Assembly (NCBI GenBank): GCA_963921195.1
Contig: OY992537.1
Span: forward strand, 74,158,894 to 74,222,893
Length of the DNA: 64,000 bases
DNA from: Pegoplata infirma
Lineage: Eukaryota > Arthropoda > Insecta > Diptera > Anthomyiidae
Reading direction: 5' to 3'
Made by a program: the position numbers and the translations under genes. A model generated the notes under the pieces. That model was not told the DNA's origin. It was given only the letters and a program-made list of their open reading frames with translations, and did no database searches. Of this stretch, positions 13,201-60,400 are shown in pieces. The first letter of the stretch is position 1. Every line of letters begins with the position of its first letter.

Positions 13201-16200
13201 TCTTTCCAGTCAGCTACGATTTGGAAAAGTTTAAACTAAATGTCCACAAACACTACTTCCTCCTTACACATCCTAATAATCTATTTTCCTAATACCAATA
13301 CAATGCACTGCATTAGTAAGGGGCATCCCCGAGTGTTGGCTCAAAGTAAAAAAAAAAAACAAGTTTCTCATTCCGTTTGTAACTCATCGAAATGTCGGTC
13401 TGGGACCCCATAAATCATGTGGGGCATTCCATGCCAAATCAGACACTTTGAAAAATGTTTTGCTTAGATTTCCTCAATTTTTGTACAGTTTTTAGTACCC
13501 TTCGAAACCTCCTTCACAATAATACACATAAATATCTCCCTTAACGTTGATTTTATTATGATTCCATGATCAGTTCAAACAAAAAATTCTACAGACCTAA
13601 TAAAAATTGTAAAATAGACCTGATGAACCCATACCTTGCATGACTGCCAATACTTTTTTAGCTCTCAATACCCACTCCCATGTTAAGAAATTAATTCCAT
13701 CTCCAAATCCCCGATTCTCTATGTGAGCATAAGAATGCATGTTTTATGTGTTAGCATGAGAGCATGTTAAGTGTTATTCCCTTAAATGTACATCCACAAT
13801 GAGATGCATGCCTTTTATTAGGGTTAAATCGCCACATACAAGAAAAATAAATATTTTACAGAAAAAAAGATTTGAAAAAAGTCAGTGAGAACCCGACGTT
13901 ATCAAATAATATATGTTAGACCATAAAATTTATATATTTTATAAATATTTACAACATTAAAATAATCATGAAATCATAATTTTCTTTTCTTTTTTTATTA
14001 AAAAAAAAAAAATATTTTATAAACCATGACCACTGCCCTTCTTCTGTTCCCCTAATATTCTAACTGCTCTTTCTGAAATTATTATTTCCTAATACTTTCA
14101 AATCTTTATGCCAAAAAGTAGTTTATATCATCAGAAATCCATTACAAATAATAAAGACCCATCTAAAGTAGAGTCTTACGAAAAACATCATTTTAATTCA
14201 GAAAATGATAATGAACAAATCATTTTTAATATTGGCAAATTAAAAACTCTTAATCATAATGCACTATCTAAACAACAACAATTACTGCAATTGATTAATT
14301 CAAATCCACCACCACCACCACTGCCACCATTATTATTACCACAACCATCATCACTTAAAGAACAACCACTACAATTTCAAATTCAACATCTAAACCCACA
14401 ACAACAACAACAGTTTCTACCTTTAATTAAGGTCAATAAAACTGAAAAGTTTTTACTAACTCTATTAACGGATAATGTGGATTTCTCCAACAGATCCAAA
14501 CAAACGCATGCCAATAAGAAATTACAACAACAAGAACAACTACTCCAACCAGAACCAAAGTCACAACAACCACAAAAACATTTTAGACAAGAACCCATTA
14601 CATCAACAACACAATCCCATACAACAACCACCACCACATCATCAACAACAACATCTTCCCCAATTTCCAAGACCATTCATAAATCCAAAAATCCTTTCCA
14701 AAATCCCTTAACGGTCACACCAGAATCAGATAATCCCATTGTTAGAGTGGTTGCACAAACACAGTCTCAATCAAGGCACGAACAAGTTCATGAACCATTA
14801 CGATCCGAAAAAGCTACAAGCCTACAAAGTTTGGAAGACATTGAAACGGTATATGATGAAAGTCAAAATGTTCATGTACAAAGTGCTGAACCACCAAAAT
14901 CTCGAGGTTCGGCTACCCAATACATATCAGCTTCTAATGATCGTGGAGTTTATGTACCCGAAACATATTCGGCTACCAGTCCTAGAGGTAATTTAGTACG
15001 TTCACAAACCGATAAATCTAATCAGGAATTTAAATCAAAAAGTTATGAGATATATGGTGGTCTCAAGAACAATGAATTTGTAGAGGATCAAAAATTGAAA
15101 AACTCTAAAGATTTGGCAGTTAAAAAACAAATTAAAAATTATGTTATATCAGATATAGCACCACAAAGTTTTAAACCAGCTCCCACAGAGAAAAATCGAG
15201 GTGTAAGTGAAGAATCTTTGGAGGATATAGAAGTATTAAATGGTGCTAGTTCAACCACTACCCTAAGATATCCGGGCACTTTTAAAAGTTCTACAGAAGC
15301 TAAACCATTTGAATATAGTTTACAAACGAATACAAATGGATTTACCTTAAGAGCTCAACATTTAGGATTAGCTGAGGAAAATTCTAAACCATTATATGAA
15401 CGTCGTCCAGCCATACAATATTTTACATCTTCGGCGCCAACTACAGCAAAGGCAACTACTACTAGTTCTACTACAAGCAAAACTACTGAAGCTCCTACCA
15501 CACCGTCTACTACAACTACAGAAAGATCTAGTTTTAGACCACATACAGAAATAGTATATGTTGAATCGTACTATGATGAAGATATACAACCTACAACGTA
15601 TGCTCCACCCTTAAGAACCTGGCGTAATGGTAGACCTACAATACAAACTACATCAACCACTACTAGACCACAAAATTTGTATGATTACAACAATAGAATA
15701 CCAACAGAATCTAATAAACTACAATCGTTAGCTAAAGAATATTTACCCAGATCAACAACTTCAAGTACCACTACAACGACGACGACTACAACAACCACCA
15801 CTACCACTCCAAGATCTACTACTAGCACTACTACAACTACACCCAGAACAACTATCCCTACAACAACTACACCACGTAGCACCACTACCACATTAGCTAC
15901 CACCGAGAGACCAGTGCAGACATTTACCGCTAGAGCTTCTATATTTAAAGATAATCTACAAAAAACCACTATAGCCTCCAATCAACGTTTTGTATCTCCC
16001 TATAAAAGTTTGGAAACTTTACTACAAAAAGAAGAAAGATCTTCCTTTTCCTCTAGCAGATCAACAGTAAAACCTAAAAATGTTCCCTTCACCTCAACGG
16101 CTCATCCATTTTTACAAACTACCACTAAACCCTTAAGAAGTTACTTTTTAATAACCTCACCACCAAAAAATCTCAATGAAACTTTATATGCTACCATGGC

Positions 16201-19200
16201 CTCTAATAATCGAAATTTCAGCATAAGTGATGCTGTTATAGGAGCGATAAAAACTAACAATAAACCCATACAAAGCACAACGATCAGTACTACGACTAGC
16301 ACTACAGAATTACCTACTAGTGCTCCAGAAACTACAACACCCACTACAATGTCTACTATTATAAATACCTCTCCTTTAAGAATTAGTTTTCATAATCGTA
16401 ATGAAGCTTCGGAAAAACCTAGACCACGAGGCAGGTCACGTTTTACAGCTGCCACGTCATCCTCAAATCTATTGGATAATGATGAACCTACTACGTATAG
16501 TCCTAAAAATCGATTTAAACATTTGGATCTAGAAATAGCTACAACTGCTCCGGCTGCTTCTCCTCTGCAAGGAAGAAGAAAAATACAAAGATCACGTATA
16601 GCCGCCTTACAAAGTCAAAGAAATACCCCAATACAGGCCCCAAAGACCAGAGAAAAATATCAAACCTTTAAACAGGAACTTAAAAAACATTATGAAAATG
16701 AAGCCATAGAACAAAATCCAAGAGCAGAAGCTTTAATAGCGACCGGACCTCTAGACAATAATCAAGATAATAGTATAGAAAGTACAAAATCCATAGAAAC
16801 TACAAAGCCAGAACAACTTTTAGCCGCAACAGAAAGACCATTGAAATATTACTATTCCAATAAATATCGCCAGCAAACCGGAGAACGTACTTTAGCGGAA
16901 AGTCTACAAAATGCTGGTTATATAACATCCTCAACAAAACCGGGAAATTCCAAATTTAAATCATCCTCCGTATTGGAACAATTACAATTGTTTTTGGCTG
17001 GCACTGATAGTGATGAAAATGAATCGGCTTCACCACAATTTGTACAGGATTTTTCTGAACCCGAAATTAAAGCAGCAGTACAAGAAATTAAAAATCTTTA
17101 TGCCTCGACAGCAGGACAAAGACCTAATACATGGACGACCACTACAACGACTACTTTAAGACCGACTACTACAGCTAAACCACCCACTACAGCTTACACT
17201 ACGACTACTAGCACTACACAAACTAATTTGAATTCTAAACACTATTCGAGCACTTATTCAACACCAGCACCAACACCTTCCCAAACCTCTAGCGGTAAAA
17301 CACTGAATTATACAACACAAGCTCAAATTAGTTTCACTTCACCTACTACAACAACCACTATCAGCACCACCACAACAACAACCACGCCTAAATACTTTCC
17401 CAAATTTCCATCCTCCACCTATAGTTACTTAACTTCCTCGTCTTCCCCCTCAACAACAACATCAACTACATCAACTACTACATCTACAACACCACAACCT
17501 GCTTATGCCTACAAATCATCCAGTGGGGGAGTAGCAGCCCAATCATCACCATTATCATCTACAAGTTCGGGTAATTTACCACCAGGTCGTGTTTCCAGAG
17601 TAAACAATGCTCTTAAATCGTCGATAGCGGCAGCTGCTACTGCCTCCCCCTCCTCTTCTTCCTTTAGTGTCAATGGCAATAATGCTGGTCATAGTTCTTC
17701 GTCAGCTTCCAATTCGGCGGCAGCGGGAAGATCTAATAATAAATTCTCCTTGGGTTCTACGGTTAAATGTTCTGATACTACGTCCAATGCTAAATGCAAT
17801 GAAATTCCTACGAGGTATTAATAATGAAAAAACAAACAAAAAAATCCCTTGATCTAAAAATTAAAATATTTTCACTGGCTTTCAAAAAAAATGTTTACGG
17901 CCTGCGGTCAATAATGAGTGCTACACAGAAAAAAAAATTATTGTAGGATCATTTTCAATTAAATCATTGTTGTTTTACCAAACAATTTAATTGTATTGAC
18001 AAATAAAATAATTGATATTTTCTTTCAACAACATAATTTGTCAATACAATTAAATTATTTATAAATGCAACAAGGATTTAATTGAAACCGAGCCAGCAAT
18101 ACAATTTTGTCTGTGAAGAGAAAAATGTATCAGTTTGAAATTGGGGGTGAGAAAATGGAAAAATTTTGATTTTTATCGAAATAGTAGTAAAAAAACTGGA
18201 ATCAATTTTCTATTGAAAAGTTATGTTATCGATAACAAAAAAAAAAAAATACTTATATCGATAGTAGTAAATTTTCTATACAGTTAATTTTTTAGAGAGA
18301 CTTTATGTTATCGTAAATTTTAACAGTTAATTTTCTACAGACAATTTTGTGTTATCGATAACAGTAAATTTTCTATAGAAAATTTTGTACTAATGATAAC
18401 AAAACATTTCTATAGAAAATTTTGTGTTATAGATAACAGTCAATTTTCTATCGAAAACTTTGTACTACCGATAACAAAAAATGTCTATAAAAAATTTCGC
18501 GTTGTCGATAACAGTAAATTTTCTAAAGAACATTTACTGGTATCGATAACACAAAATTTTCTATAGAGAATTTACTTTTATCGATAACACATAACTATTT
18601 ATTTAAAATTTACTGTTATCAATAACAAAAAAAAATCTAATGAATATTTACTGTTAGCGATAACACAAAATTTTTTATAGAAAGTTTTCTGTTATCGATA
18701 ACACAAAATTTTCTATTGAATATATACTGTTATCGAAAACACAAAATTTTCTATAGAAAATTTACTGTTATTGATAACTAAAAATGTTCTATTGAAAATT
18801 TACTGATATCGAAAATAAAAAAAATACTATCGAAAATTCACTGTTATCGATAACAAAAAAATTTGTTGTTAAAAATTTACTGTGATAAATAACACAAAAT
18901 TTTCTATACAAAATTTACTGTTATCGATGACGCTAAATTTTTTATAGAAATTTTACTGTTATCTATAGCACAAAATTTTCTATAGAAAATTTACTGTTAT
19001 CGATAACACACAATTTTCTGTGGAAACTTTTCGGTACGACTAAATTTTCTATAAAAAATTTACTGTTATCGGTAATACAAAATTCTCAATAGAAATTTTA
19101 CTCTTATCTATAACACAAATATCACAAAATTTTCTAAAGATAGTTTACTGTTATCGAAAACAGAAAACTTTCTACAGAAAATTTAATGTTACCGTTAACT

Positions 19201-22200
19201 CAAAATTTTCTATAAAAAATTTATTTTCAATAGAAAACTTACAGTTATCGATAACACAAAATTTTTCATAGAATATTTATTTTCAATAGAAAATTTACTG
19301 CTATCGATAAGACAAAATTTTCTATAGAAAATTTACTGTTATCGCAAACAGTTAATTATTAATAGCACATTTTTTTTTATCGTTATCACGAAATTTTTTA
19401 ATAAAAAATTTATTATTATCAATAACAAAAAATTTTCTATAGAAAATTTACTGTTATCAATAAAACAAATTTTCTATAAAAAAATTACCGTTATCGATAA
19501 CACAAAATTTTCTATAGAAAAGTTTGTGTTATAGATAAGAGTAAATTTTCTACAGAGATATAGATTACCGATAACAGCAAATTTTTTATCGAAAATTTTG
19601 GTTTACCGAAAAGTTTATCGATAACAGTAAATTTTCTATAGAAAATAACACAACATTTTCTATAGAAAATTTTCTGTTATCGATGACACAAAAATTTTCT
19701 ATAGAAAATTTACTGTTATCGATAACACAAAATTTTCTGTGTTATCGATAACTGTAAATATTCTATAAAAAATTTCCGTCATCGATAACTGTTAGTGTTC
19801 TATAGAAAATAAATTTCGATAACAGTAAATTTTCTATAAAAAATTTTGTGTTATCGATAACAGTAAATTGTCTATAAAAAATTTTGTGTTATCGATAACA
19901 GTAAATTTTCTATAGAAAATTATGTGTTAACGATAAGAGTAAATTTTCTATAGAAAATTTTGTGTTATCGATAACAGTAAATTTTCTATAGAAAATTTTG
20001 TGTTATCGATAACAGTAAATTTTCTATAGAAAATTTTGTGTTATCGATAACAGTAAATTTTCTATAGAAAATTTTGTGTTATCGATAACAGTAAATTTTC
20101 TATAGAAATTTTTTGTTACCGATAACAGTAAATTTTCTATAGAACATTTTTTGTTATCGATAACAGTAAGTTTTCTATAGAAAATTTTTTGTTACGATAA
20201 CAGTAAGTTTTCTAAAGAAAATTTTGTGTTATCGATAACAGTAAATTTTTTATATAAAATTTTGTGTTATCGATAACAGCAAATTTTCTACAGAAAATTT
20301 TGTGTCATGGAATACAGTATCGATGTGTTATCGATAACAGTAAATTTTCTATAGAAATTTTTTGTTATCGATAACAGTAAATTTTCTATAGAACATTTTT
20401 TGTTATCGATAACAGTAAGTTTTCTATAGAAAATTTTGTGTTATCGATAACAGTAAATTTTCTATAGAAACTTTTGTGTTATCGATAACAGTAAATTTTC
20501 TATAGAAATTTTTTGTTATCGATAACAGTAAATTTTCTATAGAACATTTTTTGTTATCGATAACAGTAAGTTTTCTATAGAAAATTTTTTGTTATCGATA
20601 ACAGTAAGTTTTCTATAGAAAATTTTGTGTTATCGATAACAGTAAATTTTTTATAGAAAATTTTGTGTTATAGATAACAGCAAATTTTCTATAGAAAATT
20701 TTGTGTCATCGATTACAGTAAATTTTCTATAGAAAATTTTGTGTCATCGATAACAGTAAATTTTCTATAGAAAATTTTGTGTCATCGATAACAGTAAATT
20801 TTCTATAGAAAATTTTGTGTTATCGATAACAGTAAATTTTCTATAGAAAATTTTGTGATATCGATAACAGTAAATTTTCTATCGATAACAGTAAATTGAA
20901 TTTCTAAAGAAAATTTTGTGTTATCGATAACAGTAAATTTCTAAAGAAAATTTTGTGTTATCGATAACAGTAAATTTTCTATAGAAAATTTTGTGTTATC
21001 GATAACAGTAAATTTTCTATAGAAAATTTTGTGTTATCGATAACAGTAAATTTTCTATAGAAAATTTTGTGTTATCGATAACAGTAAATTTTCTATAGAA
21101 AATTTTGTGTTATCGATAACAGTAAATTTTCTATAGAAAATTTGTGTTATCGATAATAGTAAATTTTCTATAAAAAATTTTGTGTTATCGATAACAGTAA
21201 ATTTTCTATCGAAAATTTTGTGTTATCGATAACAGTAAATTTTCTATAGAAAATTTTGTGTTATCGATAACAGTAAATTTTCTATAGAAAATTTTGTGTT
21301 ATCGATAACAGTAAATTTTTTATAGAAAGTTTTGTGTAATCAATAACAGTAAATTTTCTTTAGAAAACTTTGTGTTATCGATAACAGTGTTATCGATAAC
21401 AGTAAATTTTCTATAGAAGATTTTGTGTTACTGATAACACAAAATTTTTAATAAAAAAATAATGTGTTGTCGATAGCAATATGAGTTGTGTTATCGATAA
21501 CAGTAAATTTTCACTGAAACAATTTTCTGTTGCAGAAAGTGTTCAATAAAAAATTGTTTGTTATCGATGACAGTTAATTTTCGATCGAAAATTTTTTGTT
21601 ATCGATAACAGTAAATTTTTAATAGAAAATTTCATGCTATCGATAACAGTAAATTGTCAATCGAATATTTTGTACTGTCGATCACAATAAATTTTCTATA
21701 AAAAATTTTTTGCTATAGGTAACAATTAATTTGCGATAAAAATATTGTGCTATCGATAACAACAAATTTTCTATAGAAAATTTTGTGCTATCGATAACAA
21801 CAAATTTTCTATAGAAAATGTTGTGTTGTCGATAACAGCAAATTTTCTATAGACCATTTTATGTTATCAATAACAGTACATTTTGTACAGAAAATTATGT
21901 GTTATCGATAACAGTAAATTTTCTATAGATTTTCTATATCGATAACAGTAAATTTTCTATAGAAAATTACTGTTGTCAATAACAGTAAATATTCTATTAT
22001 AAATGTAATGTTACCGATTACAGTAAATTTTTTATAGAAAAAATTATGTTATCGATAACAGTAAATTTGCTATAGAAAATTTTATGTTATCGATAAGATT
22101 AAATTATCTATAGAACAGGAAATTTTCTATAGAAAAGGTTTTGTGTTATCGGTAACAATGAATTTTCTATGAAAAGTTTTGTATTTTCGATAACAAGAAA

Positions 22201-25200
22201 TATTCTTTAGAAAGTTTTGTGTTATCGATAACAAAAAATTATCTATTAAAAATTTAGTGTTATCGATAACACAAAATTTTCTAAGGAAAATTTACTGTTA
22301 TTGATTACACAAAATTTTCTATAGAAAATTTACTGTTATCGATAACACAAAAATTTTCCATAGAAAATTTACTGTTATCGATAACACAAAATTTTCGATA
22401 AAAAATTTACTGTTATCAATAACACAAAATTTTCTATAGAAAATTTACTGTTATCGATAACACAAAATTTTCTATAGAAAATTTACTGTTATCTATAACA
22501 CAAAATTGTCTACTAAAAAAAATTTACTGTTATCGATAACACAAAATTTGTTAGTGAAAATTTACTGTTATCGATAGCATAATATTTTCTATAGAAAATT
22601 TACTCTTATCGATAACACAAAATTTTTAATTGTTTGCTACAATAATTAAATTTTTTCTAACAACAATTTTTAAACTTTTATCTTTCTCTCAAGTACTCAT
22701 TTGCGACCTGGCCTTTAATTGCACTCTTTTCTAATTTTTTTTTTTCACTTCAAAGAAAAGCCAAAAACAACTTTTACTAAAAATTAATTTTTATAGCAAA
22801 ATAAAAATTTACAAAAAAATTTCTTTAATTAACTCAACAATTTCTAAATTTCCTTAATTAAAGTTTCAATAAAAAAATCTTAGTAATTTTGAGTAATTTA
22901 TTTTTTACGTTGTACGCTACATAATTTTTTAGAGAATTTTTTTCACCAAAATTTACAGAAAAAATCTTTTTTTTTTTTGTTGACAAAAAATCAGGTGGTG
23001 GTCAATTTTTGTTAAATTTATTATACTTTGTTTTTAGAGTTGAACTTTTGTTAATTTTTTTTCGCTAATTTTTATCTGGTTTCATATTAATAGAAATTCC
23101 GCACATATTTTATTCTATTTAGCAAAATTAAATAAAATATTTTAATGAAATGTGAGAACCGAAAAAAGGTCTTTTTAGTAAAATGCACTTTAATTAGCTT
23201 TTGTTGTTTTATATTATTGAATTTGCACCTTTAGTTATTCACAAAAAAAAATTGGTTTTAAATACATACAATTAATTATTTTATAATTTTTTCTAGATAA
23301 CTGGAATAGGTTTCTATTCAAAGTGTGTTGTTTTAAAACCTAATACGAAAATTAAAAAAAACGAACATTCATATTTAACATACATTTATCGAAGAAATAA
23401 TTTATTTTCATCGTTATTAAACATTATCGATAAACACCGGCAGAAAATAGGTTAAATATCCCCACCTTGGAAAAGATTGACGTCGCATTAAACAACTGTG
23501 TTCATTTCATACTCTTTTAAAATACTTGAAGTGCCTCATCGTTTTTAATCGGAAATGTTGTGTTAAAAGGAGGCTAATTCGCCGGGTTCCACTACCCGGA
23601 ATGCTCCTCATCCAGACTTTCTGGAAGTGGTATTGTTAACTTCTTTAAGATCGTTCTATGGCCACAATCGCTGCTCTTCATAGTGGTAAAGTGGCGTTCA
23701 AAAAGGCTCATAGAGGGTATACAGTCCACATTTTGCGGTATTGTTATATTCTTTAAGATCTCGCTATGGCCACTATCGCTGCTCTTCCATTGCAGTGTGC
23801 TATTCAGTCGAGTTGCCGACGTAGCCTTATACTGCCTACCCAATATGCCCAATATTGATACACATCGATGCTATTCCCTGTACCTTCGTGACAAAAAAAC
23901 ACGCTAAAGCAGTCCACCAGGCGATGATTCAATACAGCAGAATTGAACGCACCACTGCTGTTTAAAGCAAATGAACTGAACGACTTTGAGACTAAAGCAC
24001 CATCGTTTTTTAATGGCCCTTTTACAGGAATATAAAGCAATCGTTGCTTTTCTTAACCGTTCCTCAATATTACGCCTGAAATTCTACTTCCTATCCAAAA
24101 ATACTTCAAGATATTTGGCTCTATATGTGAAGGCGATTTCAGTGCCGTTCACAGAAATTATCAAAAGCAGGAATTTTGTTTTTACTTGTATACAAGACAA
24201 GCTGTTTTTTCTGGGATTAACTCCCAGAGAGATTTTTCAGAGAACCCTGAAGAATGTGCCTTTATGTTGGCAGGTGCTTTCCCTTTACCGCTATTGCGAC
24301 ATCGTCAGCATATGCGACAACATGACAACCACATGCTTCTAGAGAGAGCAGCATTGAATTCTGTGACAGGTTCCAACAAAAAATTATTGGATAAAAAATT
24401 TCAATTAAATCTATTGATCAATAAAATTTAAATGAGTCAATTATAGTTTTGATCAACATTTTTGTTATTTTCTTTAACTATCAAATTACAAATTTTCAGC
24501 ATACCAGATTTTTTTTCGCTTCAATTTATTTGAATACATTAATTTACAAATATACTTTATATTTGGGTTTTACTTTCTTTTTATTGTCGGCAACATATTG
24601 GAAAGCAAAAAATATGAATTTCTTCATAATTTTGTCATGAACTTAAAATTCATTTGTTAAATCAATCATTATTTTATTTGACTTTAAATAAAAAATTGAT
24701 CAAATTTTTGATTAAAATCGAAAAAGTGATTGATTGAAAAAAAAATCAATTAATCACCTACAATTTGATGATTGATATAACAATTTTCTTAATCGGAGGA
24801 GTTTCAATTAAAAACTTAATTGAACCCACGTTTTTGTTGATTGAAATTCATTTTCAATTATTTGTGTGAAAGAAGTGGAATAATAACACCTACCTGTAGT
24901 GGGCCTTTATTGAAAAATCGAGGTATGATAGACGCTCCCACCTTAGACGTTATACGTATATTGGGGTATACTCACTTTGTCATTCCATGTGTAACGCATC
25001 AAAATATCGGTCTAGGACCCCATAAAGTATATGTATTTATGATCAGTGATCGATTCTAAGACATTCTAGAGGTGTCCGTCCGTCTGTCCGTCCGTCTGTC
25101 CGTCCGGCTGTCCGTCCGTCTGTCCGTCTGTCCGTCCGTCTGTCCGTCAGTCTGTAGTTAACACAATGCAGTCTAAAACAAAAGAGCTAGACTCCCGACA

Positions 25201-32100: not shown

Positions 32101-35100
32101 ACTCAATATGACGAAAAGTTGTGCATGTTTGGGCACGTTCTTAGCACACATAGATAGGTTTTTCAACGACCTTTCATTTGGTATGTAACATGACGAGGTT
32201 TCTTTTTACCCCATAAATATGAATTTGGGCCGCTAAAAAAAATACGTGTCCCTTTATTTTTTCTGATCTACAAAATAAAACCAATTCCATAAAGATCCAC
32301 GGGTGACACTAGGGAGACTTCCCTTGTTAGTAATTTTGATGCGCTGAACACGAATATTAAAACAGTTTCAAAATCGGTCGAACGGTTTTCGAGATAACGC
32401 TATTTGAAATTTGCCAAAAATGACAGTTTATTCCTACGTTCAAGAAAGTAAAAAAAAAAAAATCTCAANNNNNNNNNNNNNNNNNNNNNNNNNNNNNNNN
32501 NNNNNNNNNNNNNNNNNNNNNNNNNNNNNNNNNNNNNNNNNNNNNNNNNNNNNNNNNNNNNNNNNNNNNNNNNNNNNNNNNNNNNNNNNNNNNNNNNNNN
32601 NNNNNNNNNNNNNNNNNNNNNNNNNNNNNNNNNNNNNNNNNNNNNNNNNNNNNNNNNNNNNNNNNNNNTTGATGCGCTGAACACGAATATCAAAAAATTT
32701 TAAAATCGGTCGAACGGTTTTCGAGATACCGCTACTTGTAATTTGCCAAAATTACAGTTTTTTCCTACGTTCAAGAAATTTCAAAAAAAAAAAATCTAAA
32801 AATTTCCTTCCCTTTACCCTTTTGTAGAGCTTGAGACAATCTTTTTAAATTAAACCTAATTTGAGCTACATCCGATAATTTTAACCTGTGGCTCCCTTCG
32901 ACCAAAGTTTTGCTTTTTTAAAAAATTTTTACCAAAAACTCTAAACTTTGATCGAAGGGCGCCATGGATTAAAATGATCTTATTTGGCTCAAATTAAATT
33001 TAAATGAAAGTTTGTCTCCAGCTGTATAAAATAGTCAACGGAAACAAAATTTTGAGATTTTTTTTTTAATATTTAAACGTAGGAAAAAGCCGCCACTTTT
33101 GTGGCGGCTTTTTGATCGAAGGGCACTTTGATCGAAGGGCGCCACGGGTTAAAGTGATCGGATTTGGCTCAAATTAAGTTTAAATAAGTTTTTTTTACAT
33201 GTTTTTTTTGTATTTTTGTTAAATAAATGAAACATTTGATATTATTATCGCGATGGGAAGGTGCTCTCAATGTCCCCACCTGACCCCATCACCCCCCCCC
33301 CCCCAAAATAATCGCCGCTGACAAAATTACATTTTGGAGGGATAAGAAATTCGGCACAGCCGAATTTAACACTCTCACTTGATTTTTCATCATTTTTTTT
33401 TTTATCTATTTTTTTTTTTTCATAAATTTTTTTTCCATCAAATTTTTTTTTTTCCATCATATTTTTTTTTTCATTTTTTTTTTTTTTTTTCATAAATTTT
33501 TTTTTTTTTCATAAATTTTTTTTTTTCATCAAATTTTTTTTTTCATAAATTTTTTTTTTTCATTAATTTTTTTTTTTTCATCAATTTTTTTTTCATCAAA
33601 TTTTTTTTTTCATCAAATCTTTTTATCAAATTTTTTATTATCAATTTTTTTCTCACCAAAAATTTTTTTTTTATATTTTTTTTTAATCAATTTTTTTTAA
33701 AATCAAAAAATTTTTCTTTTCATCAAAAACTTTTTTTCATCAAATTTTTTTTTTACCAAAAATTGTGGGTTCATAAATTTTTTTAACATAATTTTGTTTT
33801 TCGTGAAAAAAAAAAACATTTTTTTTACCAAAACTACTTTTTCACCAAGTCTAAGCTTTTCGCATAAAAATTTTCTATTTGTTTATCAAATGTTCATAAA
33901 ACAAGTGAGAGTGGTATATTCTTTGGTGCCGAATCTTTTATACTCTCCAAAATGTAAAAACACTTTTTTGCACTTATTTTTGCACTCACTTACGAAATGT
34001 AAGTGAGTGCAAAATGAGGTTCTCGACTGATATTTCAATTCGTTTTGCATGGAATAGCAAAGTAATATAACATTATTTTCTCTAAAAAAAACTTTGCTTT
34101 GGCAAGTACACCCAAATCTTCCGCAAAACATTATCACGATTTAATGTTTTGGGCAAGAGTACAAAATTCGCAGGCATTTTTATAGGAAACATGTCTCCAA
34201 ATCTGTAAAAATTTTTCTATGGGAAACATGTCTCAGAAGGTGAGAATTTTCTTTAGGAAAAAAGTCTTTCAATGCCAAAAAAAATTGTGTTATTAAGGAA
34301 ATAAGAATCACATAAAGTTCGGCCTTTCCGAATTTCTCGATATCCTCTACAATTTTAAATTTAATAATTTTTTAGTTAAAATATGGTTTAAAAAAAACTA
34401 AAAATTTTTTTTTTTTTTCAGACGCACTCGCCCTACATTGAAACCCTCCGGTACTATTGTCAGCAAAGCACAAGAATTTGTTGATATCTATAGAAATCCT
34501 CCCACCCGACCAGAACCCTTATATCCTACACCACAACCCGACAAGACAGCTGCTAAATGCCGTAAAGATGTCTGTCTCTTGCCAGATTGTTCATGTGGTG
34601 GCCGTGACATACCCGGTAAGTAAACTCAAAATAATTTCTTTTACAAAAATATTTTAGTTTTCAGATTTAATAACCAACAAAATTAATAATAATAATCAAA
34701 AAAAAATAATTTAGGAGATTTAAATGTGGAAGAAGTTCCCCAAATAGTATTGATAACATTTGATGATGCTGTTAGTACATTAAATATTGATTATTACACG
34801 GAAATTTTTAATAATGAAACGCGTAAAAATCCAAATGGTTGTCCCATAAGGGCGACATTTTATGTATCGCATGAATGGACTGATTATGGTATGGTACAAG
34901 ATTTATATTCGTATGGTCATGAAATGGCATCACATACAATATCGTAAGTTTACAAAGTTCGAAATAAAATTATTAAAATACCATCAAACGCATCATACCA
35001 TATCAATTATGCCACATAGCAAAATTTCAATATTTTATGAGTTTCAAAGATTTCAAAAAAATTCAAAATTTCGGCTGTTATTTTCTTTTTAAATTTTATC

Positions 35101-38100
35101 CCGTTTTGGTTTCTCTATTTATAAAAATTTTTTGTATTTTTTTATTTTCATGTGCTTTATCATCATATTTGCTACCTCTCTTAATGTGTATGTGCTTTCT
35201 TCCATTACCTATGTATATATATATAAAAAAAATCGTTGTTACTCCCTACCAAAAACCCTATATTGCCCATCGTGTTTTATAACCCCCAAAAAAATCACAG
35301 TTGATATGCCGGTTGAACAAGTTCCACAAATTGTTTTAATTACCTTTGATGATTCCGTTAATGATTTGAATAAGCAATTGTACATTGATTTATTCGAAAA
35401 GGGTCGTGTTAATCCAAATGGTTGTCCCATCACAGCCACATTTTATGTATCTCATGAATGGACTGATTATAGTCAAGTACAAAATTTATATTCCGATGGT
35501 CATGAAATGGCTTCACATACCATATCGTAAGTATTTTAGTTAACGTGATTTTATGTAATGAGCACAATTTATTTTTCTTTTATAAAAATCTGCACGTAGA
35601 CAAATTTGATTAAACTAAAAAGCACCATTAACAAAAAAACAGCAAAGAAAACTATAACATAAACACGAATTTTATAGGGAAGAGTTAGAGTTATTTTAAG
35701 TAAAAATTCGAGTTCGGGACAATAATATTTAAAAGTTTTGAGAATTTGATCGATAAAATAGGATTTTTCGATAGTGGGCAAATAGTTGATGACTGTTTTA
35801 AATTGAGCTTAATATACTGATTCTAAATCAATCTTTCAAGATTTGAGAGCGACATTGGTGATTAAATGCTAAATATTAAATTACACAGAAAATAATATTG
35901 AGAAAAACAATTTGAGTAATCACTTGTTTAAATTTTTAAAACAATTTTGAGTATTTTTTTTTAATTAACGCAATTAAAAATTTACTCAAAAATTGAAAAT
36001 AAAATTTGAGTAAATAATTTAATACAAATTTAATATTTTTTTTTATTATTTTTTTATTCTCTTGGTGTTTTGAATTCTCATTTAGTTTATAGTTTTTTGT
36101 ATATGGGGGTTTTCGTGTCAACTGACACAACTTTTGAAACCGATGTCTTCCGATCGGGATGAAATTTGCACTAAGGTTAGTCCTATTGGATAGTAGTTCA
36201 GACACAATTTTTCAACGACATCGGTCAAGGACTTTCTGAGTTAGAGGGGGTCGAAATTTTACATTTTGGCCAAAGAGGTGTTTATTCTCATCCATGTAAC
36301 TTCTTACCTATTGTTTTTAGCAAAATGTGTCCCAAATAGTATAGATAGCTATTTCTTCAGTCTTTTGAAAAAAATTATAAAAAATTAAAAAAAAAATTTT
36401 TTTGATTTTTTTTTTTAAAAATCCAAAACTTTTTTGACCTTTTCCTCAAATTGGGCCCTTTTTTTTTTTTTTTTTTGATTCTAAAAAAAGCTTATTTTAT
36501 TTCCTTTATGACCTATGGGGTCGCTTAGTGGGATGCGAGAGGGATATCTATGAAAACTTTTTTTTTTAACTTTGGACCACAAAAAACGGTTCTTAAATTT
36601 GTACTATTAGGCGTGGGAAAGCTAACCAGTTTTCGATTTTCATTCGCGATACCCTCTAATTTTTATAGGTTCGAAAAAGAAAGCATGAGCCAAAAAATGA
36701 GGGCGGTGGGGTGGGGTCATATGGCCTCACATCGGGGTCAAAGTTAAGCGTTAAGTGGTAAAATACCTTAAAAAGCCCCACAACTGCCCTATACACGCCC
36801 CTGGAGGGGTGCAATGTGAGACGAACCCCCAATAATTTTCAGCCCCCAACATTTTTCTTGAACATACCTAACCCCTATTTCGAATTCCTAAGGGGGCTCC
36901 CATACAAAATGTCATTTTTTAAAATTTGCTCCTACCGCTCTAACTCTCCATAGGGTGCGCCTAGAGAAGTAAAATGTATGACCGACCCCCAATATTTCTT
37001 CAACTCCAACACTTTCTCAGAATATACCTACCCTTTATTTTCAACTCTTAAGGGGGTCCCCATACATTTTTTTTTATTTTTTTATTAGTTTTTAAAGATA
37101 CATGTTTTTATAATGTATGGGAGCCCCCTTAGGGAGTGGAGATAGGGTGCTATTATGTTCGGACAAAATGTTGGTGACTAAAAATTAATGGGGGTTGGTC
37201 GTAATTTTTACCTCTCTAGGAGGCACGGTAGGGGCGGTAGGAGCTGGTTAAATAAAACAAATTTATAAAAAAATAAAAAAATGTATGGGGACCACCTTAA
37301 GGGTTAAAGATACATTGTAGGTATGCTCGGAAAAAATGTTGGAATTAATAAAATAATGGAGGTCCGTCATACATTTGGCTCCACTAGGGGCACTTTAGGG
37401 TAAGTTAGAATGGTAGGAACAATTTTGTTTAAAATGTTTTGTATGGGAGCCCCCTTAGGAATTGGAAATAGGGGTTAGGTATGTTCAAGAAAAATGTTGG
37501 GGGCGGAAAATTACTGGGGGTTTGTCTCACATTGCACCCCTCCAGGGCCATGTCTAGGGCAGTTGTGGGGCTTTTAAAGGTATTTTACCACTTAACGCCT
37601 AATTTTGACCCCGATGTGGGGCCATATGACCCCACCCCACCGCCCTCATTTTTTGGCTCATGCTTTCTTTTTTGAACCTATAAAAATTAGAGGGTATCGC
37701 GAATGAAAATCGAAAACTGGTTAGCTTTCCCACGCCTTATAGTGAAAATTTAAGAAGCATTTTTTGTGGTCCAAAGTTAAAAAAAAAAAATTTTCATTGG
37801 TATCCCACTCGCATCCCACTACGCGACCCCATAGGTCTTAAAGGAAATAAAATAAGCTTTTTTTTGAATCAAAAAAAAAAAAAAAAAAAAAAGGGCCCAA
37901 TTTGAGGAAAAAGTCAAAAAAGTTTTGGATTTAAAAAAAAAAAATCAAAAAATTTTTTTTTTAATTTTTTATAATTTTTTTTCAAAAGACTGAAGAAATA
38001 GCTATCTATACTGTTTGGGACACATTTTGGTAAAAACAATAGGTAAGAAGTTACATGGATGATAATAAACACCTCTTTGGCCAAAATGTAAAATTTCGAC

Positions 38101-44100: not shown

Positions 44101-47100
44101 TTCTGAAATACAATTGATAATTTCTGAAAAACAATTGATAATTTCTGAAATACAATTGATAAATTCTAAAATACAATTGATAATTTCTGAAATACAATTG
44201 ATAATTTCTGAAATACAATTGATAAATTCTGAAATACAATTGGAAATGGTGTAGTAACTAACTAGTAACTAATTTGCTCTTTTGTAGTAATATAAATAAG
44301 TTAGTCCTTAGTAAGTGGCAGTTTTCTTTTCTGTTAAGAATACGTCTGTTTACGACTGATCATTTACAGTTCAAAAAATAATTCTAACTTTTTTTATCCC
44401 ACCTTCTTCAAAAAAAAAACAACAGTCACAGTTTTGGTGAACAATTTTCACAAAATAAATGGACCCGAGAAATAGCTGGACAACGCGAAATTTTGGCCGC
44501 CTATGGTGGTGTCAAATTATCTGATGTCAGAGGCATGCGTGCTCCATTCCTATCTGTGGGCGGCAATAAAATGTACAAAATGTTATATGATTCTAATTTC
44601 ACTTATGACTCGTCAATGCCGGTTTATGAAAATCGTCCTCCATCCTGGCCGTATACTTTGGATTATAAAATATTCCATGATTGTATGATACCACCCTGTC
44701 CCACTAAGAGTTATCCGGGCGTTTGGCAAGTACCTATGGTGATGTGGCAAGATTTGAATGGTGGCCGTTGTTCTATGGGTGATGCTTGCTCAAATCCTTC
44801 AGATGCTGATGGTGTTCAGAAAATGATAATGAAAAATTTCGAAAGACATTATACAACAAATAGGTGAGTATTTAGAGTTTTTTTTTCTAACTGAAAACTA
44901 TGAAATTTTTTACGTTATTATTTTTATTTTTTTTTTTCATAAAACATTGAAGTAATGGATTAATTGATTCAATTATTTTTTAATTGATACAATTATTTTT
45001 TAATTGAATCATTTAACTGACTTAATTATTTTTTTAATTGATACATTTAATTCATGCAATTATTTTTTTTATTCACTGATTCAATAAGATAATTTTTTTA
45101 TGAATTTTTTATAAAAAAAAGTAATTGCAATTGTGCCTTAACTACACCATTTACAGATGAAATTCGAAAAAGATCAATTGTAATTCGAAGATTCTATTTG
45201 TAATTCGAAGATTCCATTTGTAATTCGAAGATTCCATTTGTAATTCGAAAATTCCATTTGTAATTCGAATACTCCAATTGTAATTCGAAGATTCCATTTG
45301 TAATTCGAAGATTGCAATTGTAATTCGAAAAAGATCAATTGTAATTCGAAAAAGATCAATTGTAATTCGAAAAAGATCAATTGTAATTAGAAAAAGATCA
45401 ATTGTAATTCGTAAAAGATCAATTGTAATTCGTAAAAGATCAATTGTAATTCGAAGATTCCAATTGTAATTCGAAAAATATCAATGGAAATACAGTTGAT
45501 ATTTTTCGAATTACAATTGGAATCTTCGAATTACAATTGATCTTTTACGAATTACAATTGATCTTTTACGAATTACAATTGATCTTTTTCGAATTACAAT
45601 TGATCTTTTTCGAATTACAATTGATCTTTTTCGAATTACAAATGGAATCTTCGAATTACAAATGGAATCTTCGAATTACAAATAGAATCTTCGAATTACA
45701 ATTGATCTTTTTCGAAGTACATCTGTAAATGGTGTAGAGATGCTACAGCAAAAACCTCATAAATTTTGGATCATCGCTACAGATTTCCGAAAATCCGTTT
45801 TAAAATGAATTTGTTATAAAAAGCTTTAACCGCATTTTGTGGCTATTACTGAGTGAAAATAGCTAAAATTTGAGATCACCCCTAAAAACTTTCAAAAATC
45901 CGTTTTGTATATTTTTTCTAAAAAACTTAAACGGCTATTTGTGGCTTAACTACACCATTTACAGATATAATTCGAAAAAGATCAATTGTAATTCGAAAAA
46001 TATCAATTGTAATTCGTAAAAGATCAATTGTAATTCGTAAAAGATCAATTGTAATTCGAAGATTCCAATTGTAATTCAAAAAATATCAATGGAAATACAG
46101 TTGATATTTTTCGAATTACAATTGGAATCTTCAATTTACAATTGATCTTTTACGAATTACAATTGATCTTTTACGAATTACAATTGATCTTTTTCGATTT
46201 ACAATTGATCTTTTTCGAATTACAATTGGAATCTTCGAATTACAAATGGAATCTTTGAATTACAATTGGAGTATTCGAATTACAAATGGAATCTTCGAAT
46301 TACAAATGGAATCTTCGAATTACAAATGGAATCTTCGAATTACAAATAGAATCTTCGAATAACAATTGATCTTTTTCGAATTACATCTGTAAATGGTGTA
46401 GAATTGGGAATTATCCGTATAAATTTCCAAAAATTATTTTTTTTAATAAAAGTTACTGCATGACTCAACTTTACTATTTCAATAAGTAATTCGAAAAGGA
46501 TAAATTGTAATTCGAAGATTCTTCTTGCAATTCAAAGATTCATTTGTAGTTCGAAGATTCTACTTGTAAATCAAAGAATCCATTTGCAATTCGATAATTT
46601 CATTTGTAATTCAAAAATGCCAATTGTAATTCGAAAAGTATCAATTGTAATTTGAAAAAGATCAATTGTTATTCGAAATACATCAATTGTAATTTGAAAA
46701 AGATCAATTGTAATTCGAAAAAGATCCACTGTAATTCGAAAAAGATCAAGTGTAATTCGAAAAAGATCAACTGTAATTCGAAAAAGATCAATTGTAATTC
46801 GTAAAAGATCAATTGTAATTCGAAAAAGATCCACTGTAATTCGAAAAAGATCAACTGTAATTCGATAAAGATCAATTGAAATTCGAAGATTTCAATTACA
46901 CAGTACAACACTAAAAAAAATTACGGGGTTCCGACGATTGATTCTGGTAGAGAAGACCAAAAAAAATATAGTGTTTTAAAAGATCACATCGAAGTTTTAT
47001 TTTAAAGGCGATTGAAATTTCCCAGCTTTGGCCTGTTCTTGCAGCATATCGGAATATAAAACTATATTTTCTTTTCATCTTCGGTGTAGGGTTTGTTCAG

Positions 47101-50100
47101 CAATTTTGTAAAATATATTATTGCAAATATTTTTGTGGAACACGTTAACCCTCTAACTCTCCCTTATAACGGTACTTTTGGCTCTATTCTAACAAATCGT
47201 AAAAAACATTTCAAAAGAGGGGGAGGGCAGGGATAAAATGTTCTACAAAAATTTTGGCCATAATATTTAACTATAAATGTCAAAACACTCTAAAGCCCAA
47301 AACTTAACACAAACACCAAAAACCAGTCAAATACAAGGTTGCCCAGCAAGGGTTATTTTTTTTTGTAATTTTTTTTTATTGGCAATCTTGAATTTGACTA
47401 TAAAACAATGTTTTCTTTTCACCTGAAGTGTAGGGTATGTTCAGTAACTTTGTAGAAAATATAATGGCAAATATTTTTGTGAAACATATTAACCCTCTAA
47501 CTCTCCTATATAACGATAACTTTTGGCTCTATTCAAACAAATCGTATAAAACACCCCTAAAAAGATGGATGCGAGGATGAAATGTTCTACAAAAATGTTG
47601 GCATTAAAATTTTACAATATATGTCGGAACACACCAAAGCCCAAAACTTAACAGAAACACCAAAAACCAGCCAAATTCAAGATTGCCCACTAAGGGTTAA
47701 TTTTTTTTTGTAATTTTTTAATGAGCAATCTTGACTTTGACTCTTTTTTTGGAGTTTGTGTTCATTTTTGGGCTATAGTGTGCTCTGAGAAATACGGTAA
47801 AATTTCATGGCCAACATTTTTGTAGAACATTTGATCGACGCCCTCCCCCTTTTTTGGGAGTTTTTTACGATTTTTTAGAAAAGATCAAAAAATACTTTAA
47901 AGGGTTAATATGTTCCACAAATATATTTGCCAAAATATTTTCTACAAAGTTGCTAAACATATGTAGCTTGCACCTCAGATGTAAAGAAAACATAGTTTTA
48001 TATACTGATATCTTAACCGCCTCTAAAATAAAATTCCGATGTGATCTTTCAAAACGCTGACACACGTATAACATTTTTTGGTCTACTCTACCTCAATCAA
48101 TTGTCGGAAATTGTTGTACAGTGTTATAATTCAAAAAAGATAAATGAAAGCTCAGTTAATATTTTGCGAGTTGTGTGAGTTTGAAATTTTTTTGCGACTT
48201 CAAATTTTAATTCAGAAAAAATTTTAATTTTTAATTTTATTGTAAAAATTTTTTTGAATTTCTACCAATTTAATTTTTCTTAAAATATTTTTTTAATTTT
48301 TCTAATTTTAGGGCTCCCTTCGGTTTGTTTTATCATGCTGCTTGGTTTACCCAACCTCATCATAAAGAAGCTTTTATTAAATTCTTAGATGTTATCAATG
48401 CCATGCCAGATGTCTGGATTGTTACCAACTGGCAAGCTCTTCAATGGGTTAGAGATCCTACACCCATATCAAGAATAAATTCATTCCAACCATTCCAATG
48501 TGATTATTCGGTAAGTAAATGATTTTTAAACAAGTAAGAAAATCAGTGGCGTATCCAGGGGACCCGGGGGCAAATTTCAGGATTTGGTATCAAATAACAA
48601 GTACAATATTTAAAACTTCTTAAAAAAATCGAAAAACATAAATAATCTAAAATTTTTTGAAGAAAAATGTTTTGAAACTGAAAATTTTTCTGTTAAAAAA
48701 ATCTCAAAATCTGAAAATTTTTTCTTAGAATTTGAAACTTTTCGACTTAAGATTCTAATGAAAAATATCTTAGAACCTGAAGTTTTATGTACACAAAAAA
48801 TGGACCTAATTGTAAGTAAAATGTAGTCAAATCTTAAAATGCGACTTGGTCTTTTAGAAAAATGTCTCAGAACGAGACTTTTTTTTTAAAAAAAATGTCT
48901 CAGAATCTTACACTTTTCTAAAAAAAAATGTCTCAGAATCTAAAACTTTCTATAAGAAAAATGTCTGAGAATCTAAGACTTTTCTAATAGGAATAATGTC
49001 TTAAAATATTGGCCTTTTTCTCAGAATCTAAGACTTTTTCTATAGGAAAAATGTCTCAAAAACTGAGACTTTTTCTATAAAAAATTCTCAGAATCTGAGG
49101 CTTTTCTATATGAACAATTTTTCAGAATCTGAGAACTTTCTATAGGAATAATGTTTCTGAATCTAAATTATGTCTCAAAATCTGAGATTTTTTCTATAAA
49201 AAAATTTTTAGAATCTGAGGCTTTTCTATGTGAAAAATGTTTTAGAATCTGAAAACTTTCTATAGGAATAATTTCTCTAAATTTTTCTTACAATCTTGGA
49301 AAATGTTTCAGAATCTTATACTTTTTTAACGAAAAATGTCTCAGAATCAACGAATTTTTCTTAAGGAAAATTATCTCAAAATGTCTCAGAGACACACAAG
49401 TCTCAGAGACACACAAGTCTCAGAGACACACAAGTCTCAGAGACACAAGCTGAGACTTTTTGTATAGAAAAATGCTAAAAATCTGATACTTTTTCTATTG
49501 TAAAAATATCTTTTTCTATAAGAAAAGTGTTTAAGCATCTGAGACTTTTTCGATAGGAAAAATGTCTCAGAATCTAAGAAATTTTCTGTAGAAAAAATTT
49601 CTGAGAATCTGAGACATTTTCTATAGAAAAAATGTCGAAGAATCTGAGACTTTTCTATAGGAAAAATGTCTCAGAATTTGAAACTTTTTCTATAGGAAAA
49701 ATGTCTAAGAACCTGAGACTTTTTCTATAGGAAAAATGTCTAAGAATTTTAGACTTTTTCTATAGGAAAATTTTCTTAGAATCCGAGAATTTTTCTTTAG
49801 GAAAAAGGTTTCAGAATCTAAGACTTTTTTTATACTGTTTTCTTTTTAAAAAGGTCTCAGAATCTGAATTATTTTTCTTTTAGAAAAAGCGAAGATTTTC
49901 TCAGAATCTAAAACTTTTTGTGTAGAATGTTTCAGAATCTGAGAAAATGTGCTAGACTAGAAATATCTCAGATTCTGGGACAATGTCTTACAATCGGAGT
50001 CTTTTCTTTTGGAAAAGTATTTTATGAATATGTTTATATAATCATTTTCTAAAGTGACTTTTTCTTGAGAAACGTTTTCCATTGGAAATATGATTTAGAG

Positions 50101-53100
50101 TCTTTGACTTTTTCTATAACAAAAACTGTCTCAACTGAAAATTGTCATAGAAACTTTGACTTTTCTTTGAAAAAAAATGCAGATTCTGATAATTTTTTTT
50201 GTAAAAATGTCCCAGCATCTGATACAATTCACACTTTAAAAAAAGTCTTAAGTCTCTCAAAAAATTTTAAAATATAAAAAAAAATTATTTTTTTTTTTCC
50301 CCAACAGTTTTAAACTTACACAAAAATGAAGAATCTGATTGAGTTACATTCGAGAAAAATTCTTAAACATGTGCTGTTATGTAAATTTTTTGCAGCAGTG
50401 TTTTCCAGAAAATAGGTCCAAGTCCAAAAATGGACCGATTGCATCTATCTTTCGTTAGATTTTTAATAAGTGTAGAAAACACACACAAACCTATTTTAAG
50501 TGGATTGACCGGATTTACAGAATATGGGTCCAATTTTCTGAGCCCTAAAAAATTATGACTCTTTGAAGGCTTAAAAATATGAATAATTTTAGAACGATCA
50601 GAATTTGGAGTCCTAAAAGATTCATATTTGACACTTCTTTATGAACATTTGAAAATTTTTAAATTATTTTTCTGAACATTCATAAAAGAGTCCAAAAAGG
50701 CTCAGAAAAGGATAAGAATATTTATTTTTCTTTTACTGAGTCATAAAAGGGACCATTTTAAAAGGGACCATTTTAAAAGGAAAACATATTCATATTGATA
50801 TGTTTTCTGAGCGTCTAAAGACTCTTTTATCAGTCTTTTCGGAGTCCTGGGTTTAATCAAATATTTCCTGTTTTCATAAACATCACAGAAAAAAATAAAA
50901 AAAATATTTGAGTAAATTTTTAATACTATTGAGTAAAAAATTACTCAATTTTGCACCAGTAAACGATTTAATAGTATTGAGTAAATTTTTAATAAAAATT
51001 TATTAAATATTTGAAAAAAAATTTGAGTAAATTTTTAATGGACACAATTAAACATTTACTCAAAATTTATCTATTTTTTTTTTTTTTAAGTTTAAAAAAG
51101 TTTTAAATTTTTTTACAAAAAAAAAAAAAAACAAAAAACTTGTTTTTTCAAACTTTACCAAACATATTTATGTCTCAAAAACATAAGAAAATTTTATAAA
51201 AACGATCACAAACTTTCATATACATACACAAAAAACTATAAACTAAACAAGAATTCAAAAAACTATGAGAGTTAAAAAAAAAATAAAAAAACTATTAAAT
51301 TTTTATTAAATTATTTACTTAAATTGTTTTTAAAATTTTTGAGTAAATTTTTAATTGCGTCAATTAAAAAATTACTCAATTTTTGTTTTTAAATTTAAAC
51401 AAGTGATTACTCAAATTAGTTTCCTCCATATTTTTTTCTGTGATTGAGAGATTTATGTGAATTTTGGGAGGGTGACTTTTATGAGGAACCAGAAGAACTT
51501 GTCCGATTCCTTTAAAATTTGAAACGATTTTTTGTGAATACAAAATACGATCACCTTCCAAATTTGGGCGAATGGAGACTAGGTCTAAACATGGACCGAT
51601 TTTTTAAAACTTCAATAGGGTTCTGCTGTGTGCCAAAAGAAGGTTAAGTTTTAAATTTCAGCTCAATCGGTTAATAAGAGTATTGTGCGAAGAAATTTAT
51701 ATGGACAGACGGACGGACATCGCTAAATCGACCCCAAAAGTGATTCTGCACAAACTCAATTTACGCGGTACCACAGAATGGTGTAGGGTATAATAACCCA
51801 TGCCACTTTTGGGTCAAAATTCGGTCGAAATTTTCAAATAATTGTAGCTTTTTCCTGCGTTCAAGGGATTTAAAAAAAAAAAAGATCTCAAAATCTTATT
51901 CCATTGACATTTTATATATCTTAAGACAAACTGAGCCAAATCCGACTATTTTAACCCGTGCAGCCTTTCGATCAAAGTTTTGGATTTTTAAAAAGTTTTT
52001 ATCAGAAACTCTTAACTTTGATCGAAAAACTCAAGGGGTAAAATGTTCTGAATTGGGTCAAATTAAGTTTAAATGAAATTTTGTCTCAAGCTCTATGAAA
52101 TTTTCATCTTTCAATAATCCAAAATATTGGTGAAAATTTTTCAAAAACCAAAATTTTACTCGAATAATGCTACGGGTAAAATTTATCGGATTTGGCTCAA
52201 ATTAAGTTTTAAAGAAAGACTGTCCAAGCAGTATAAAAGGGTCAAAGAAAAGAAAGAAATTTTGAGATTTTTTTTTTTAATTTCTTGAACGTAGGAAAAA
52301 ACTGCAATTTTTTGAACATTTCAAATAGCAATATCTCGAAAACCGTTCGATCGATTTTTATACACTCCAACCACAATATGGGGGTATACACACTTTGTCA
52401 TTCCGTGTGTAACGCATCGAAATAATGGTCGTGGACCCTATAAATTGACGCCCTATGTTCAACATGAACTTTTATAAATGCCAAACGAGTTATACCGGAA
52501 AATGTAGAGGCTGTTATGGCGACGACATTAGAGAGCCGTGCGAAATTGCCCAGACTTGAAAGCAAAAAAGACTTCAAACAGTAATTTTTTTATTTTCTTT
52601 TCTATTACTAAGTTAAATTAATTTTTTCATTTACATATGGGGCATTCCATGTGAAATCGGACACTTTGAAAAACTTTTTTTTTAGATTTTCCCAATTTGT
52701 TTACAGTTTTTAGTACCCTTCGAAAACTCCTTCGTGGTAAATTTTCAGATTTTTTTGATGACCCTTTCAAAAGATATCGAATTTTTAAAAATTGGTAGTT
52801 TGTTCCTTTACTCAAACTTCTTTTAATCATAACTTCTTCAATAATGGTCCAAATTTAAAATTTTTTTTTTCAAAATTTTTGTTTTTTTACGTACTTTTAA
52901 AAAAAAAATCCCAAAAAATTCTTAAAAGCGCTCTAGTATGCGATTTTTAAGTTTTAATATTTAAATCTCATTTTTGAAAATGTTTGTACTCTTCGATTTT
53001 TTTGAAATTTTTTTGTGTAAAACTTCTATCAATTCTACAAATTTTTTGCCCAGGAAGATCGTGGGATAACGATTATTACTATTTTTTAAAATTTTTTGAA

Positions 53101-60118: not shown

Positions 60119-60400
60119 CACGTGCCCAGGGCGCCCATCTCACGGTGGCCCCGAAAGACCAATAACCATTTTTCATTCGTATAGTAAATTTTTAATAAAG
60201 AAGAAGCCTCAGATTCTTAAACATTTTTCGTATAGAAAAAATCTCAGATATGGTGACATTTTTCATATCGAAAAAGTCTCAGTATCTTATTGTTAGACGT
60301 TTTTCTTATAATAAAAGCCTGAGATTCTGAGACATTTTTCGTATAGAAAAAATCTCAGATTCTGAGAAATTTTTTGTATAGAAAAAGTCTCGAATTTTTT
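60119..60400. repeat. GGGCACGTGCCC palindrome and third small alternating array
   Basis: Starts at a GC-rich spot with the perfect palindrome GGGCACGTGCCC. From 60190 it has five or six units of CTCAGATTCTGAGAC and TTTTTCGTATAGAAAAA, the 48.6-50.3 kb array type in reverse orientation. Confidence 0.6.

Follow-up and report, generated by a model that had tools for sequence, protein, structure and literature searches.

Macro-dyad satellite DNA (satDNA) of Tribolium madens, T. freemani and T. castaneum is the nearest published parallel that we found to the repeat described here (PMC13081366). According to the 2026 Tribolium paper, macro-dyad satDNA is documented exclusively in Tribolium and is discussed as a possible centromere architecture, and one-directional arrays of TmSat1 tend to be shorter (PMC13081366). 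Dyad enrichment has been discussed for centromeres; among those of D. melanogaster, it was seen in the Y centromere only (PMC9070824). Here we analysed a satellite with a 38-bp unit found in 64,000 nucleotides of the anthomyiid fly Pegoplata infirma (GCA_963921195.1, contig OY992537.1, positions 74,158,894 to 74,222,893), a stretch that we call the window. While the Tribolium repeats derive from a ~110-bp element, occupy multi-megabase (peri)centromeric regions and have a few strongly conserved inversion sites (PMC13081366), the 38-bp family has a unit that is itself dyad-symmetric, forms dispersed arrays, one of them in a probable intron, and flips its orientation through either of its two palindromes.

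In the window, probing with the unit by BLAST and a search with Tandem Repeats Finder both delimited a continuous tandem array:

18204..22626, no strand assigned: 38-bp dyad satellite array of the form P20-NN-P14-NN, ~114 units
18329-19738, 19730-22115 and 22120-22626: 38-bp arrays of 37.2, 63.1 and 13.2 copies, respectively (Tandem Repeats Finder)

A preliminary description of the same DNA had placed ~115 units of such a satellite at 18140..22628. The array was confirmed, with ~114 units in the assembly, while its start had been set slightly early, the leftmost recognisable unit in a dynamic-programming decode being 18201-18238. The unit is built as described there, that is, P20 (a 20-bp palindrome, AAATTTTCTATAGAAAATTT), 2 nt, P14 (a 14-bp palindrome, TGTTATCGATAACA) and 2 nt. 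When reverse-complemented, the circular consensus agrees with itself at 34 of 38 positions; among 2000 composition shuffles the mean was 21.2 and none reached 34. Because two dyad centres per unit (19 bp apart in this case) are inherent to any self-reverse-complementary repeat, the two alternating palindromes represent approximately a single fact. Exact P14 and P20 sequences occur 47 and 26 times in the array, respectively. The array is 4.4 kb long and flanked by other sequence on both sides, and the N-run at ~32.4-32.7 kb of the window does not lie within it. Its bin 20840-21289 is only 0.7% off consensus (8 ungapped units) as compared to 7-13% in the outer bins, and such a homogeneous core with degraded edges is as expected from recent local amplification, with growth in the middle. 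Across loci, homogenisation within arrays had a small effect (pairwise divergence 0.148 within and 0.169 between loci). A MITE-like (miniature inverted-repeat transposable element) fold-back at ~17920-18125 adjoins the left side of the satellite (RNA fold of 17914-18130, -62.7 kcal/mol); it had no long match at the 20 further loci introduced below.

The family is dispersed through the genome. In the assembly that holds the window (1.384 Gb, 813 contigs), a 153-bp query found 292 candidate places, of which 40 were scored; these contained at least 808 matches and lay on C1-C5 and on small contigs. A 29-place core with 27 fixed bases had 226+180 = 406 exact genome matches, while its reversed control had 0. 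At three places on C1 (82.94, 216.93 and 272.55 Mb), a single match to the core was listed. There were 0 exact matches to this core in viral contigs. The arrays are scattered over C1-C5 with gaps between them; copies elsewhere in the genome, on which the preliminary description had made its reading depend, were therefore found. We fetched 20 further loci (10 kb each, with several arrays extending past the fetched piece). In the best 25 locus pairs, array identity was ~73-84%, except for the duplicate pair L043/L044 (99.97%), and most of the compared arrays carry their own unit order. Much of both flanks is common to L032 and L036, whose arrays align nearly end to end at 84%, and these two therefore probably represent one ancestral locus. 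L043 and L044 (C1, ~303.74 and 303.76 Mb) have near-identical arrays and flanks 19.9 kb apart, indicative of a recent duplication or an assembly duplicate.

Across the 20 loci and the window, likeness of array edges (up to 150 bp) was limited to the pairs L032/L036, L033/L049 and L043/L044, with shorter and weaker likeness in L038/L042 and between L043-L044 and L045. In this set, no common carrier of the 38-bp arrays was found and no edges were shared beyond these pairs; the edges fade out without precise ends. A 641-bp query laid across the right edge of the window array recurred, among the matches listed, only in its positions 1-84, which are the satellite part. No description of the 38-bp repeat was found in literature titles and abstract openings, a search that left subscription literature mostly uncovered.

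The strand of a unit can be read only from its spacers, which are AC..CA in plus and TG..GT in minus orientation. In the window array, blocks of units follow one another in the order - + - + - +, a block-wise reversal that was absent from the preliminary description and is added by the present analysis:

18269..18515, minus strand: block with spacers TG..GT and a degraded edge (dynamic-programming decode, spacer scan)
18516..19504, plus strand: block with spacers AC..CA, ~9-13% off consensus (decode)
19505..19628, minus strand: short block (decode)
19629..19729, plus strand: short block (decode)
19730..22197, minus strand: long block containing the low-divergence bin 20840-21289 (decode)
22236..22626, plus strand: terminal block (decode)

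Flips were counted over 20 loci, namely the window and 19 others, with the duplicate L044 left out. The 1,167 callable units comprised 573 plus and 594 minus units; both orientations were present at 13 loci, and 56 flips occurred within arrays at 12 of the 20. The eight loci without a within-array flip had 14-94 called units and the twelve others 14-116, mostly more, so flipping loci are mostly larger, but more units also mean more chances of a flip. Flips pass through either palindrome, usually with the register kept (by strict spacer calls, 32 of 822 across P20 and 27 of 829 across P14). Palindromes at flips were not more perfect than others (P14, 9/21 vs 243/642; P20, 1/22 vs 141/608).

Evidence independent of the spacers came from L047, where the arrays of opposite orientation are not contiguous but have 1.7 kb of other sequence between them. 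A one-sided P14 variant (G24A) sits on the right side of 47 minus units and, mirrored, on the left side of 44 plus units; it was on the opposite side in 2 units, while 7 units were unchanged and 10 ambiguous. This marker reverses together with the spacers, from which it follows that whole units were inverted and not merely that spacers mutated. Likewise, reverse-complementing the minus units improved their match to the plus units, irrespective of spacers, at three of the ten testable loci (L040, L043 and L047). We also compared mirrored arms around flips. A looser call gave 64 flips, 36 of which join adjacent units, and 15 could be tested (all P20, with runs of at least 3 on both sides and enough random pairs). 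At 13 of these 15 junctions, the likeness of the arms did not exceed that of random opposite arms, which is consistent with existing segments having been reversed; since the arms there lay within the spread of random pairs, fresh fold-back duplication was rejected as the general source of flips.

Arrays of other sequence in the window also reverse. A non-palindromic 20-21-bp tandem array at 45142-45737 is a near-perfect hairpin, its arms 45336-45484 and 45496-45644 being 99% complementary with 11 nt between them (RNA fold of 45150-45730, z=-44.2, 100 shuffles). Together with the fold-back tandem arrays 43779-44266 and 45959-46401, it flanks the deacetylase exon 44388-44864 (see below). Since these non-palindromic arrays at 43.8-46.4 kb reverse as well, a dyad monomer is not required for flipping.

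A second dyad satellite was present in the same window, one of its arrays within a dispersed element:

48544..50392, plus strand: one copy of a dispersed element, terminus CAGTGGCGTATCCAGG, carrying the second dyad array (repeated edges)
60188..60391, no strand assigned: second array of the 35-bp family (Tandem Repeats Finder)

Its 35-bp unit consists of the palindrome TTTTTCTATAG(G)AAAAA followed by TCTCAGA[A/T]TCTGAGA. As for the element, 48571 is the start of 17 of the 39 scored places besides the window, and 50351 or 50392 the end of 35; these are from 40 scored of 17,973 first-look candidates, a figure that is not a copy number, the query having contained other repeats too. Two fetched element copies are 96.7% identical over 1298 bp, and the inverted counterpart of the CAGTGGCGTATCCAGG terminus at 48544 was located at L051:1578-1593. 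Judging by its ends, the element is presumably hAT-like. Other dyad units were an 18-bp array of CCGGGAATACCGGTATTC at 40222-40325, whose unit is fully self-complementary (18/18), and AAAAAGTACTTTTTTTAA, present at L044.

The surroundings of the array contain the following frames:

14093..17818, plus strand: open frame of 1242 codons, no Pfam match, putative upstream exon of the same Cda5-like gene
34696..35527 (34696-34944 and 35093-35527), plus strand: two alternative-looking polysaccharide deacetylase exons downstream of the array (Pfam PF01522)
44388..44864, plus strand: further chitin deacetylase exon (phmmer to PDB 5z34, E=4.9e-34)
9623-11084, minus strand: retrotransposon frames for RNase H (Pfam PF00075) and reverse transcriptase (PF00078)

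The PF01522 score of 34696-34944 is 21.8 bits, below the curated cut-off of 23.1, and that of 35093-35527 is 25.1, above it. Both frames match the same profile start (positions 6-67) and are possibly mutually exclusive exons. The label Cda5 comes from the preliminary description, which had put the array into an intron of this gene, and what is directly shown is the deacetylase domain. The downstream deacetylase frames are compatible with this placement and the upstream exon is assigned putatively, so that the array likely lies within a Cda5-like chitin deacetylase gene, in one of its introns.

Taken together, a dispersed satellite whose monomer is unusual and whose units are often inverted is well supported, with any function of it hypothetical. 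The family occurs at many separate places, unit order is particular to each of most arrays compared, the core of the window array is homogeneous while its edges are degraded, and units are inverted in blocks. We consider it quite probable that this is a dyad-symmetric satellite grown by unequal exchange or slippage and scrambled by inversion, which resides as a passenger in the Cda5-like intron. According to this model, the arrays would expand through unequal exchange or through slippage during replication, and their segments would be reversed piecewise by inversion between opposite units, through recombination or template switching. Inversion would be cheap in a palindromic monomer, because the palindrome in which the breakpoint falls remains a palindrome. 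A mere passenger would be the most likely status of the array within the intron.

Several observations weigh against this model. The orientation of the window array rests on four spacer bases, and at 7 of the 10 testable loci, including the window, there was no significant signal of reversal beyond the spacers; shared asymmetric changes may be too few for the test there. Two junctions, L049 (0 of 150 random pairs as alike) and L048:4495 (0.047), lean to fold-back duplication, and only 15 of the 64 flips of the looser call were open to the mirrored-arm comparison. Copy number and orientation were taken from one assembly and the passenger status from its sequence, and the model leaves the dispersal route of the 38-bp family unexplained.

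As for the origin of the palindromes, selection for dyads had been suggested in the preliminary description. Inside the arrays this found no support: without L045 and L047, double changes that compensate each other were about as frequent as by chance (126 vs 121.4 expected), and joint change reaches 1.08x expectation at partner positions vs 1.23x at non-partners. With all loci included (L044 dropped), there were 208 compensatory changes vs 158.6 expected, and the excess is mostly due to pair 24/35 (82 vs 42.1), i.e. it comes from L045. General selection for, or repair toward, perfect dyads was rejected on account of this lack of excess outside L045 and L047. At L045, TATTATCGATAATA is both-sided in 70 units, and the same change is one-sided at L047, as if a change in the palindrome had been copied across the dyad. 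It is tempting to speculate, doubtful as we hold it to be, that scrambling and dyad symmetry reinforce each other: homogenisation between opposite orientations would drive the monomer toward its own reverse complement, until the spacers were the sole memory of orientation. A one-sided change would then tend to become two-sided, with L047 and L045 as two successive stages of one step. If true, this feedback would let palindromes arise by mutation, with no need for selection on the binding of a dyad-recognising protein; the two-sided changes are, however, not in excess at other loci, which counts against it.

Alternatively, a mobile element might carry the 38-bp arrays, which would have begun as repeats inside or at the ends of a transposon, of the fold-back or another type, and expanded later. 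Foldback (FB) transposons of Drosophila have inverted arms made of tandem repeats, and some of our loci, for example L045 and L047, do have minus arms followed by plus arms; moreover, the 35-bp sister array sits in a dispersed element with repeated edges and a CAGNGGCGTATCCNGG terminus. In contrast to FB transposons, the 38-bp loci (20 fetched loci and the window) had no common termini beyond the pairs named above, and some arrays contain several flips. Few array edges are shared, the flanks of L032 and L036 agree on both sides as those of a duplicated locus would, the right edge of the window array recurs only in its satellite part among the matches listed, and the outer array ends are not consistently inverted, so that we regard a carrier element as possible but unlikely. 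Collapsed or wrongly joined repeats in the assembly could also mimic reversed blocks, given that repeats with inverted copies are hard to assemble and that the near-identical L043 and L044 lie only 19.9 kb apart. Yet many loci differ in unit order and mostly have unrelated flanks, and the reversal at L047 carries an independent sequence marker; an artefact is thus extremely improbable.

Two further explanations would assign a function to the array. Its RNA might fold in the intron into long double-stranded RNA (dsRNA) to be processed into small interfering RNAs (siRNAs) or edited. The fold-back potential proposed in the preliminary description is indeed extreme: a 900-nt array piece folds as RNA at -413 kcal/mol vs a mean of -157 (z=-42.6, 20 shuffles), which predicts a long duplex, and a 300-nt piece folds as DNA with z=-18.2 (200 shuffles). 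By these predictions, a transcript of either array strand could likely form long dsRNA, and the DNA could extrude hairpins. By analogy with tandem hairpin loci and 1.688X repeats, a long duplex in transcripts can matter: hp-CG4068 of D. melanogaster, with 20 tandem hairpin copies, yields siRNAs that are lost in dcr-2 mutants (PMC10317233), and a 1.688X dsRNA transgene producing siRNA rescues dosage-compensation mutants (PMC11228850). The folding is nevertheless an automatic result of dyad symmetry, the predicted duplex is mismatched at the spacers within one orientation, and the many scattered loci suggest no specific target, which makes a hairpin-RNA function quite improbable. The other explanation, one of several raised in the preliminary description, is that clustered TATCGATA and CGATA motifs recruit DREF/BEAF-type proteins and that the array is kept as a factor sink or insulator. 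The motifs are present: there are 65 exact TATCGATA in the array and 67 in the whole window (dinucleotide-shuffle mean 0.91), fewer than the "over a hundred" announced, commonly one per 38 bp (e.g. 19966, 20004, 20042, 20080), hence several CGATA, at least 3, per 200 bp. BEAF may, however, be confined to Drosophila. Over 678 ungapped units (L044, L045 and L047 left out), the C29/G30 centre of TATCGATA is mutated in 9.3%, compared to 20.3% for C8/G13 and 14.0% for G24/C35, and its AT positions differ slightly from the P20 arms in the same direction (-0.012; bootstrap limits, -0.024 to -0.0001); the C/G centre thus changes less often than the remaining G/C positions, and a weak constraint may exist. 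On the other hand, TATCGATA as a whole (7.2%) is mutated about as often as the AT arms of P20 (7.7%; the CTATAG core, 15.2%), and private changes are not rarer in it, a count that recurrent mutation biases. The sister 35-bp satellite lacks TATCGATA throughout its array stretches in the window. BEAF dual-cores consist of CGATA clusters around a ~200-bp CGATA-free, AT-rich spacer, and a few with a shorter spacer are still bound (PMC2605929); the largest distance between successive CGATA/TATCG motifs in the array is 114, so that this ~200-bp spacer is absent, which counts against the reading, although BEAF may, as in those few, still bind. Overall, this role seems very improbable, and TATCGATA was probably inherited along with the palindrome rather than being the reason for the array.

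Returning to the dispersed, inversion-scrambled satellite that we favour, each described system resembles it only in part. BEAF dual-core and DREF sites share the clustered CGATA and TATCGATA, and the dual-cores form two clusters near a promoter with a ~200-bp spacer (PMC2605929), in contrast to the continuous tandem array in the window. In hp-CG4068 loci, tandem units likewise fold as RNA, but siRNAs were observed there (PMC10317233), whereas the 38-bp family comprises many scattered loci known from their sequence; introns with such arrays would place long double-stranded stretches in ordinary gene transcripts. The satellite-like repeats carried by Helentrons in oyster are, like the 38-bp family, short arrays dispersed through the genome (PMC7492417); their carrier was identified, whereas none was found for the 38-bp family, although its 35-bp sister has one. 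With its head-to-tail units in many copies at several loci, the family is a dispersed satDNA. In Tribolium macro-dyads, units change orientation and inverted sub-arrays could form long hairpins (PMC13081366). Orientation changes within arrays at 12 of 20 loci in the 38-bp family as well, in this case not in the form of multi-megabase (peri)centromeric regions, the window array being 4.4 kb long and the others, several of which extend past the fetched 10 kb, scattered over C1-C5 with gaps. Flipping may thus belong to certain repeats as such instead of being solely a centromere feature. As the spacers act as a built-in orientation marker, inversion can be counted unit by unit, and the origin of palindromic satellites thereby becomes testable. 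What the 38-bp family adds to the Tribolium example is orientation flips in scattered arrays outside that genus, with a monomer that is itself a dyad.

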